This document shows, in pieces, positions 18,055 through 33,922 of a DNA stretch of 64,000 nt. Source of the stretch: Loktanella sp. 3ANDIMAR09. Lineage in GTDB: Bacteria > Pseudomonadota > Alphaproteobacteria > Rhodobacterales > Rhodobacteraceae. The stretch's first letter is position 1; the number at the start of each line of letters is the position of its first letter. Location of the stretch: the NCBI RefSeq assembly GCF_001420005.1, contig NZ_LJAK01000002.1, forward strand, positions 62,001 to 126,000, given 5' to 3'. A program made the position numbers and the translations under genes. The notes under the pieces are model-generated. The model worked only from the letters and a program-made list of their open reading frames with translations. It made no database searches and was not told the DNA's origin.

Positions 18055-18444
18055 TTACTGCGCGCGGACCCAGTTCTGGCTGGCGCAGATCAGACCACCT
18101 GCCACACAGCCCTGAAGCCGCAACGCATTGCCGTTGACCTGCATCTTGCCGACATAGGTCTTGCCGTTGGACGGGCGATAAACCTGACCGTTGTAGGTGC
18201 CGTCACCGTTCGGTGCCATGCCGATGACGATCTGGCGGCCGATGTTTTCGGATTGGAACGGCGTGCCGTCGGCCTGATAGGTCCGCACGATCGTGCCGCA
18301 GACCGCAGCGCCGCAGGTTTCCATCTGGATATGGGCGAATGCGCCGTCGTCTACCTCGGTTTGCCAGACGCCGACGGCGGCGTCCTGTGCTGATGCTGCC
18401 GTTGCGATCAGGCCAGCTGCAATCGCTGTCAGAATTCGTTTCAT
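18055..18444 (-). CDS. exported DUF2147 protein
   Basis: 129 aa. A clear signal peptide (MKRILTAIAAGLIATAASA) is followed by the compact DUF2147 beta-rich domain: GVWQTEVDDG near the start, CGTIVRTY, and YVGKMQVNGNALRLQGCV near the end. Two cysteine pairs may form disulfides in the periplasm. Family function is not established. Divergent from hisA. Confidence 0.82.
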   Translation of the reverse strand: MKRILTAIAAGLIATAASAQDAAVGVWQTEVDDGAFAHIQMETCGAAVCGTIVRTYQADGTPFQSENIGRQIVIGMAPNGDGTYNGQVYRPSNGKTYVGKMQVNGNALRLQGCVAGGLICASQNWVRAQ

Positions 18445-18575
18445 TTGGGTCTCCTCCCCTCAAGTCATGGCGAACTTTGTGGTCGGGCGGCCCTCGCAAT
18501 CAAGTCTGACGTTGGGTCGGTTGCAATTTCCTGCCGCCCGCGCCAGAACCGCGCCAAACCAGCCGGAGGCCTGCC

Positions 18576-24243: not shown

Positions 24244-24318
24244 TGGAGCGGGCGAGGCGATTCGAACGCCCGACCCTAACCTTGGCAAGGTTATGCTCTA
24301 CCCCTGAGCTACGCCCGC
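24244..24318 (-). tRNA. tRNA-Gly (GCC), copy 1
   Basis: On the minus strand the acceptor GCGGGCG pairs with CGCCCGC, followed by U and an encoded CCA. The anticodon loop TTGCCAA carries GCC, and the T-loop is GTTCGAATC. 75 nt including CCA. Identical to the copy at 24338-24412. Confidence 0.95.
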
Positions 24319-24337: not shown

Positions 24338-24412
24338 TGGAGCGGGCGAGGCGATTCGAACGCCCGACCCTAACCTTGGCAAGGTTATGCTCTACCCCTG
24401 AGCTACGCCCGC
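24338..24412 (-). tRNA. tRNA-Gly (GCC), copy 2
   Basis: Same sequence as copy 1 over all 75 positions, including the encoded CCA, with a 94-bp period. Being upstream on the minus strand, it is probably co-transcribed with copy 1 and processed; the terminator at 24207-24235 serves both. Confidence 0.95.
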
Positions 24413-32970: not shown

Positions 32971-32992
32971 TTTTTCGACAGACTGACAAATG

Positions 32993-33032
32993 AAAAAGGC
33001 GATGCGCGGGAGGAGGTGCGCATCGCCTTTCC
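32993..33032 (-). terminator. terminator with the CCTCCTCCC motif as its loop
   Basis: A perfect 13-bp stem (32995-33007 with 33018-33030, core GGCGATGCGC) encloses exactly the 10-nt motif as loop. On the minus strand TTTTT follows, so this last hairpin of the array is also the intrinsic terminator of the DUF1127 transcript. The plus side has only TTTCC and may weakly stop the Lrp-like gene. Confidence 0.85.
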
Positions 33033-33470
33033 ATTTGTGAGCGCAAACCTCGGGGAGGAGGTCGGGCTTGCGCCGGCGTCGGGCCCTCCGGGAGGAGGTA
33101 GAGGGTTCCGACGATGCGGACTGCCGCGGGAGGAGGTGCAGCGTCCGTATGCGAATTCAGGGTGCGGTGATGGCCGGGAGGAGGTGACCACCACCGCTGT
33201 CTGCATGGGTCCGACCGCAGGGAGGAGGAGAGCGGCGGACCCAGGTCTTTACCCGAATATCCGGCTGGGAGGAGGTAGCCATTTATCCGGGTCATCCGGG
33301 CCACCGCGGGAGGAGGTGCAGCGCCCGTATTCTGTTGTTCAAAACGGCGACCCCAACACGGGGAGGAGGTCGGTCAGGGCCGCCGCTTTGTGTTTTGCGC
33401 GCCCACCTGAAGGGAGGAGGTGGCGGGCGGCGCTGTCAGGTCGGAACCAGGGAGGAGGTTGGTTCGTTCC
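32993..33470 (-). ncRNA. CcsR/cuckoo-type small-RNA array, 11 hairpins
   Basis: Eleven copies of GGGAGGAGGT on plus (ACCTCCTCCC in the minus-strand RNA; unit 6 ends in A) start at 33008, 33053, 33090, 33128, 33176, 33220, 33267, 33308, 33361, 33412 and 33450, 37-53 bp apart. Most are flanked by inverted repeats that put the motif in a loop: unit 1 GGCGATGCGC, unit 2 GCGCAA, unit 3 CGTCGG, unit 7 ACCCG with AGCC, unit 11 GGTTC. Units 4 and 8 are near copies, with an A-T pair replaced by G-C in the stem (33120/33144 versus 33300/33324), a compensatory change. The array begins 11 bases after the DUF1127 stop. This is the organisation of the stress-induced CcsR1-4 RNAs of Rhodobacter sphaeroides, which follow the DUF1127 gene ccaF1 (RSP_6037) and are processed from its transcript. 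Confidence 0.88.
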
Positions 33471-33480
33471 CGATTGGAAT

Positions 33481-33690
33481 TCAGTTGCCGTAGGCTGCTT
33501 CGGTTGCGATGCTGCGGATCATCGAGCGGGAAATGCCCAGATCGGCCAGTTCGCGGTTGGTCAGCGCGGACAGTTCGTTTACCGTGTTGCGATAGACGCG
33601 GCGCTTTGCAGCGGCGTCGGCGATCTGCTTGCGCAAACCAGCGAAACGCTGGGTCAGGGACGGCGCGACGTTTGTGTTTGTGTAAGCCAT
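33481..33690 (-). CDS. DUF1127 small RNA-binding protein (CcaF1-like)
   Basis: 69 aa from the ATG at 33690. The C-terminal DUF1127 motif is clear: NELSALTNRELADLGISRSMIRSIATEAAYG. The protein is basic in its middle (KQIADAAAKRRVYRN). In R. sphaeroides the equivalent protein CcaF1 binds RNA and helps mature the CcsR RNAs encoded just downstream. The same neighbourhood here suggests the same role. A heat-shock-sigma promoter would be expected upstream (33691-33820), but I cannot assign one with confidence. Confidence 0.88.
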   Translation of the reverse strand: MAYTNTNVAPSLTQRFAGLRKQIADAAAKRRVYRNTVNELSALTNRELADLGISRSMIRSIATEAAYGN

Positions 33691-33922
33691 GTTGTGTCTC
33701 GTCTTTGTTGTGTTCAGCATTGTTTGCCGCTTGTGACCAATATCTAGGATTATGCTGCACCTGCACAATAGCTGTCTCGTCAATGCTGCTATGCAGCAGG
33801 CGCAAGTTACTCTAGGTCTGTTACAAATCCTTTACGCTTGGGTTTTCGGGGCACTTGCACCTTGGGCACGCCGGGACCAGTGTGCGCGCGGTATCGCATG
33901 ATCGCATTGAAGGGGGCACCGC

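Follow-up and report, generated by a model that had tools for sequence, protein, structure and literature searches.

An eleven-hairpin cuckoo RNA array behind a DUF1127 gene in Loktanella: an unusually long version of a known small-RNA family

The minus strand of the window, by which we mean the entire 64,000-nucleotide stretch of the Loktanella sp. 3ANDIMAR09 genome analysed here, carries a DUF1127-cuckoo RNA operon of the kind termed CIN1 locus or ccaF1-CcsR in print. With its hairpin array, it represents a known small-RNA family in an unusually long form that is still changing. The explanation that we consider best, and somewhat better than evenly probable, is an LsrB-type-activated precursor with redundant anti-Shine-Dalgarno loops, the number of which changes module by module.

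Between positions 33458 and 33008 of the minus strand we found eleven exact copies of CCTCCTCCC, compared with 0.48 expected in the 64-kb window, and at least eleven copies occurred in none of 100 dinucleotide shuffles of the window. The first copy follows the stop codon of a DUF1127 gene on the same strand after 22 bases (Table 1), in agreement with the preliminary description, which had placed eleven minus-strand copies behind such a gene. Its reading of the motif stands for the exact 9-mer, but the longer form ACCTCCTCCC is found in ten copies only, the sixth (33228) carrying a T before the 9-mer. Successive motifs are 38, 51, 53, 41, 47, 44, 48, 38, 37 and 45 bases apart (range 37 to 53). 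Across the 3.67-Mb genome the 9-mer occurs 18 times, and the array accounts for 11 of these occurrences. The genome-wide search showed no second array, the remaining seven copies all being singletons. Elsewhere in the window, two tRNA genes of equal score lie 22 bases apart on the minus strand (24247-24318 and 24341-24412).

All eleven motifs are located in the loops of local hairpin folds. When the whole array was folded, ten of the eleven were at least 0.86 unpaired, while the ninth (33098) reached 0.51 there and forms the loop of its own local hairpin. The motif had been described as lying mostly in loops, which is what we observed; base pairing of the motif in most units, named at the time as one outcome that would speak against the array, is not the case. 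The array folded at -229.9 kcal/mol, whereas its shuffles averaged -173.1 (z = -9.1). Hairpin 11 and the T run behind it are likely the terminator of the array, and the end of a convergent Lrp/AsnC gene lies 22 bases past the ar14 match described below. A protein-coding reading of the array was rejected because the motif spacings share no common reading frame and the stems pair across the loop. The loop motif presumably resembles the anti-Shine-Dalgarno end of 16S rRNA; this comparison rests on established knowledge, as the 16S tail patterns GGCTGGATCACCTCCTTT and GGATCACCTCCTTTCT had no match in the one and five genomes searched, respectively.

Table 1. Features of the array locus and the candidate regulator gene (G000, window genome).
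Feature	Position	Strand	Remarks
VtlR/LsrB-type box TGCATAGCAGCATTG	33781..33795	(-)	at palindrome TGCTGCATAGCAGCA (33798-33784)
Promoter-like TTGTGC-N16-TAGATA	33741..33768	(-)	just downstream of box; candidate only, read from sequence
DUF1127 gene, 69 aa, CcaF1-like	33481..33690	(-)	Pfam PF06568, E 1.8e-14
Hairpins 1-3, 5' three-hairpin block	33341..33473	(-)	motifs 33458, 33420, 33369
A/U-rich linker, blocks 1/2	33328..33340	(-)	
Hairpins 4-7, first four-hairpin block	33164..33327	(-)	motifs 33316, 33275, 33228, 33184
Linker, blocks 2/3	33148..33163	(-)	not clearly longer than other linkers of window array
Hairpins 8-11, second four-hairpin block	32988..33147	(-)	motifs 33136, 33098, 33061, 33016
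LysR protein	G000 contig C5:216920-217774 (L249:1501-2409)		reciprocal best match of rhizobial LsrB/VtlR-like protein

Covariance-model searches, proposed earlier as a check, gave a divided result. The Rfam ar14 model (RF02344) matched at 33116-32992 on the minus strand, corresponding to hairpins 9-11, with 69.4 bits against a gathering score of 58.8, and stayed below threshold at two more stretches, with 37.6 bits (33477-33342, hairpins 1-3) and 35.6 bits. The CcsR1 model (RF02791), in contrast, did not reach its threshold of 65.3 bits, its best score being 28.2. The initial assignment as a CcsR array is thus upheld for a cuckoo-type array behind a DUF1127 gene, but not for CcsR itself. Cuckoo RNAs reportedly have two to four adjacent hairpins, according to a family paper of 2015, whereas eleven stand in one row here; cutting into three- and four-hairpin blocks would fit that range. 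Three and four hairpins are reported in PMC3927594, and three for ar14 RNAs (PMC10746234, PMC7143759). A title-level literature search found no published title on arrays of such length.

We also compared hairpin numbers across relatives, as the preliminary description had suggested. The array was present in all nine genomes of the Loktanella group (G000 to G008), which includes Loktanella atrilutea, L. fryxellensis, L. salsilacus, Loktanella sp. DSM 29012, SALINAS62, LH_M9 and Salipiger sp. IMCC34102. The exact motif counts, in the order G000 to G008, were 11, 23, 14, 11, 15, 10, 11, 19 and 14; counting one degenerate hairpin each in G002, G005 and G008, every array of the group has 11, 15, 19 or 23 slots, 131 in total; L. 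atrilutea is the genome with 23 and L. salsilacus has 15. Yoonia-type relatives mostly have 7 slots, a number that likewise follows 3 + 4k. With relatives at 7, 15, 19 or 23, the array seems to lengthen by four hairpins at a time. Eleven hairpins, taken at first as a novelty, are no record, as relatives have 23 and 26. In the family sample, 217 of 295 genomes contained at least one close motif pair, and ten of 295, two of them from the Loktanella group, contained at least ten pairs on a single strand, a count by strand and not by array.

The 107 named stretches sampled (80 with titles) were chosen by a pattern requiring three ACCTCCTCCC, so that they favour Loktanella/Yoonia-type arrays. Of the 78 rows with at least four motifs, 54 were complete, having both the stop codon of the gene and the terminator hairpin; these include one array twice (L096, G005) and one MAG twice (L140, L156). 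A slot number of 3 + 4k was found by script in 30 of the 54 and, after inspection of the gaps, in 42, across rows whose lengths are phylogenetically non-independent; the remaining twelve have 8, 9, 12, 14 or 20 slots. The twelve rows raised to 3 + 4k by long leads or gaps represent eleven loci, one being present twice, and each added slot holds a hairpin, mostly with a near-motif, one in L116 being without a motif. The gaps of L139, L165, L150, L189, L177, L097 and L141 hold mostly plain stems lacking the motif; one decayed motif in the gap of L165 was not added to the slot count. L183, with 11 slots, is outside the complete rows because its terminator failed the rule. Three records titled Membranihabitans, Spirulina and Obscuribacterales (L104, L125 and L131) also contained triple-motif matches. 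A further stretch, L186, has nine 9-mers at a constant spacing of 21 bases, and no DUF1127 gene was found there; we take it as a probable coding repeat rather than a hairpin array.

The modular arrangement is visible in the hairpins themselves, the types of which align as an initial set of three at the 5' end and then successive blocks of four; in L. atrilutea, a block of types G-C-A-B occurs three times in a row. Within the window array, hairpins four apart are more similar (0.403) than those at other offsets (0.26-0.32; permutation p = 0.005), while the similarity at offset 2 (0.268) is no higher than background. L158, L176, L124, L105 and L087 show offset-4 likeness too (p 0.0002 to 0.007); L183 is less clear, with p 0.03 and an equally high offset 2. 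In the pooled arrays, the spacing at block boundaries (behind hairpins 3, 7, 11 etc.) averages 48.0 bases (n 50) compared with 42.7 elsewhere (n 214), and the linkers at these boundaries are longer (9.3 vs 4.0 bases) and richer in A/T (0.67 vs 0.58). The window array taken alone has a spacing of 48 after hairpin 7, which is not distinct (51 after hairpin 2), and this indistinct linker counts against our preferred explanation.

These observations do not support a two-hairpin CcsR as the unit of the array, and the earlier expectation of five or more two-hairpin RNAs has to be given up: it is offset 4 and not 2 that recurs, slots in the genus number 11, 15, 19 and 23, and the CcsR1 model fails. 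That the transcript is cut into two-hairpin small RNAs in the CcsR manner is very unlikely, even though the gene order is like that of ccaF1-CcsR1-4 and a period of two does occur in Oceanicola sp. m2 (L139, 20 slots) and Cypionkella aquatica (L133, 14), for it has against it the odd slot numbers (7, 11, 15, 19, 23), the background-level similarity at offset 2 and the CcsR1 score. Two further genomes, with 26 and 14 motifs, show a period of three. The amplified block therefore differs by lineage, the Loktanella type being four. The longest array seen, L076 (G172:C1:333200-337200), has 26 motifs in similar three-hairpin blocks of about 140 bases, with a DUF1127-like frame ahead. Hairpin number in Loktanella most likely changes by tandem duplication of a four-hairpin module, although an existing four-hairpin duplication would give steps of four through crossing-over by itself. 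As far as the literature was searched, four-step growth and the wide range of copy numbers are new.

The stems and loops of the hairpins follow different courses. We examined 128 hairpins in the nine genomes, which were picked by the exact motif, so that loop identity among them is due to selection and the fair figure is 128 of 131 genus-group slots with the exact loop. The base before the motif is A in 122 of the 128, and the closing pair directly flanks a 10-base loop in 114. The arms of a hairpin pair with each other at 4.54 of 5 positions and with the arms of other hairpins of the same array at only 2.27, which bears out the strong stem divergence noted earlier. The 21 seven-slot arrays examined retain the exact loop in 128 of their 147 slots; loop decay with the hairpin kept is found in 6 of 21 arrays at slot 1 and in 12 of 21 at slot 6. 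Measured against the 10-base-loop geometry, slots 3 and 7 are nearly fully paired and slots 1, 2 and 6 badly so, and because the latter deviate from this geometry, only 833 of 1176 cells are paired. Of 56 pair columns, 41 show a double change. A hairpin's own arms pair at 4.51 of 6 positions, and arms exchanged with those of the corresponding slot in another species at 3.80. The loops are thus largely kept while the stems change and re-pair.

This pattern bears on two other readings of the array. A neutral or selfish tandem repeat, whose copy number varies by unequal crossing-over and has no function, would account for the difference in length between close relatives, for the near-identical array blocks in L. 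atrilutea and G172 and for the decay of some loops, but appears highly improbable given that stems change compensatingly and most loops stay unchanged. Slightly less improbable, yet still quite unlikely, is an uncut structured 3' region that mainly protects or silences the DUF1127 mRNA and has no targets in trans. Stable structure throughout, a terminator at the end and slots that remain hairpins even with a decayed loop would all agree with it; the exact loop in 128 of 131 and 128 of 147 slots, on the other hand, would be needless for protection alone. Loop decay in persisting hairpins also argues against a strict role of loop number. A structural role fits these hairpins too, which lowers our confidence in dosage.

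Over 69 columns, the DUF1127 protein does not differ from its counterpart in Loktanella sp. DSM 29012. Of the 78 array rows with at least four motifs, 61 yielded an upstream DUF1127-type frame. The RNA CsrB sequesters the protein CsrA by many like loops, and by analogy the array could act as a protein sponge, with the product of the upstream DUF1127 gene as the most likely ligand. We regard this as doubtful. The single loop motif, free stems, variable copy number and frequent upstream frame would suit a sponge, as would reports that CcaF1 binds RNA and affects CcsR levels (PMC10253847, PMC8307010). However, the three loops of NfeR1 are reported to pair with mRNAs (PMC7143759), DUF1127 proteins also act by protein-protein contacts, no RNA binding having been found for Salmonella YjiS (PMC12501420), and three-hairpin loci mostly have no adjacent DUF1127 gene.

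We then turn to the control region. LsrB is the rhizobial name of VtlR, and a box of this type lies about 105 bases before the DUF1127 start codon. When the VtlR motif given in PMC12595884 is reverse-complemented, the box agrees with it at all but 2 of 15 positions. A box within three mismatches is present in 53 of 60 array loci, always in one orientation and 101 to 148 bases from the start, whereas shuffles average 5.2 mismatches; the 60 are the loci with enough upstream sequence, with L. atrilutea counted twice (L085, G001). The seven loci in which the box is beyond three mismatches include four of Aliiroseovarius type. Among three-hairpin loci, mostly rhizobial, no clear shared box was found, with only 4 within three mismatches among the 23 testable loci (26 given, 3 too near an end). 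The degenerate pattern TGCATRGCNGCRWTG has a single match in the window genome, at the array, and occurs near the array in seven other genus genomes searched; for the Oceanicola genome, its own array-promoter string was found. Eleven further matches lie elsewhere in the nine genomes, and the reversed control gave none. The promoter-like element is largely conserved in the genus (8 upstream regions aligned; G005 without a start found).

A candidate for the activator is encoded in the same genome. When searched against four Rhodobacterales genomes, the LysR gene beside trxB in Rhizobium giardinii, which we take to be LsrB by its synteny, gave a single match per genome that stood out (223-242 bits, with the runner-up at 127-131). 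For the window genome this match is reciprocal best: both searches score 227 bits, ahead of 128 and 154 for the runners-up, and within the DNA-binding part (the first 60 residues) the two proteins agree at 44 positions. Judged by sequence, this LysR protein is a likely candidate for an LsrB orthologue outside Rhizobiales. LsrB is reported to activate the ar14 RNA NfeR1 (PMC10746234), and PMC11975290 states that it occurs only in Rhizobiales. The R. sphaeroides operon is described under an RpoHI/RpoHII promoter (PMC10253847), which we count against the LsrB-activated reading. As far as the literature was searched, an LsrB-type box together with a candidate regulator outside Rhizobiales is new.

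In the explanation that we prefer, the LsrB/VtlR-like LysR activator would bind the box at 33795-33781 and drive one minus-strand transcript, comprising the DUF1127 mRNA and an eleven-hairpin 3' region that ends in the terminator hairpin. If the transcript is cut in the linkers that follow hairpins 3 and 7, one three-hairpin and two four-hairpin RNAs would result; we infer RNase E as the cutting enzyme from the pooled linker pattern and from R. sphaeroides, where CcsR1-4 are reported to be cut by RNase E out of the ccaF1 transcript (PMC10253847). The exposed anti-Shine-Dalgarno loops would pair with G-rich ribosome-binding sites and lower translation, with transport genes as likely targets. 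As all loops carry one seed, the number of hairpins would set dose or avidity and not the target range. According to PMC7143759, NfeR1 acts redundantly through its three identical loops on the translation starts of mRNAs, most of them for transport, and by analogy the eleven loops would act like them, in more copies.

We searched for such sites with GGGAGGAG located 3-10 bases before ATG, which occurs 158 times in the nine genomes against 20 for the reversed control, and 9 times against 4 in the window genome, where four transport proteins, namely DctP, DctQ and two Peripla_BP_4 proteins, are among the products of the nine genes. Thirty of the 158 were fetched, and 22 remained after 5 frames below 100 aa and 3 orthologous repeats were dropped; 3 of the 22 were assigned by identity to GGGAGGAG genes of the window genome and not by Pfam. 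The control set AAGGAGGT, which holds internal, non-start matches, was reduced from 29 frames to 14 (13 below 100 aa, 2 repeats). Transport genes make up 10 of 22 compared with 3 of 14 (Fisher p = 0.13), and solute-binding proteins 7 of 22 compared with 0 of 14 (p = 0.02), an enrichment that is only suggestive in such small sets. Counted against the preferred explanation, a complement was found at a start codon for only one of the seven other 9-mer sites of the genome. A DUF2147 gene of the window carries GGGAGGAG as its ribosome site (18442-18458, minus strand), complementary to the hairpin loop over 8 bases, and strings like GGGAGGAGACCCA...ATG, similar to this site, are among the matches of several genus genomes.

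Taken more broadly, and tentatively, such arrays might be a copy-number-tuned regulator, in which one anti-Shine-Dalgarno signal is made stronger or weaker over evolution as complete processing modules (of two, three or four hairpins, depending on the lineage) are gained or lost. The arrays would be under an LsrB-type activator that existed before Rhizobiales and Rhodobacterales diverged, and the DUF1127 protein together with its hairpins would be one titratable unit; we hold this possible, at odds well below even. The relatives offer a natural dose series of 7, 11, 15, 19 and 23 slots behind one gene, on which the effect of the number of small-RNA binding sites can be tested. Contrary to the recent printed statement, our data suggest LsrB/VtlR control of DUF1127 genes and anti-Shine-Dalgarno RNAs beyond Rhizobiales, which may thus be an older alphaproteobacterial circuit.

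Among known systems, CsrB/RsmZ RNAs sequester protein by many hairpins with one loop motif. The array resembles them in combining many such hairpins in one RNA, but has another motif and no link to CsrA. With ar14 and NfeR1 it shares CCUCCUCCC in every hairpin loop, variable stems and a terminator-like last hairpin, and its LsrB-type box would match the reported LsrB control of NfeR1; unlike these three-hairpin RNAs, which mostly have no adjacent DUF1127 gene, it comprises eleven hairpins with four-hairpin modules behind such a gene. The R. sphaeroides ccaF1-CcsR1-4 locus, a DUF1127 gene followed by cuckoo hairpins and named CIN1 locus (PMC10253847), likewise combines a terminator with same-strand hairpins whose loops carry the motif of the window array, but is reported there with four small RNAs and an RpoHI/RpoHII promoter, whereas the window array has a period of four, a LysR-type box and a failing CcsR1 model. 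Finally, the arrangement is like the VtlR/LsrB regulons of Rhizobiales, in which one LysR activator is reported over small DUF1127 genes and small RNAs (PMC12595884, PMC7486931, PMC10746234); unlike these regulons, described as confined to Rhizobiales (PMC11975290), the box and the reciprocal homologue are found here in Rhodobacterales.
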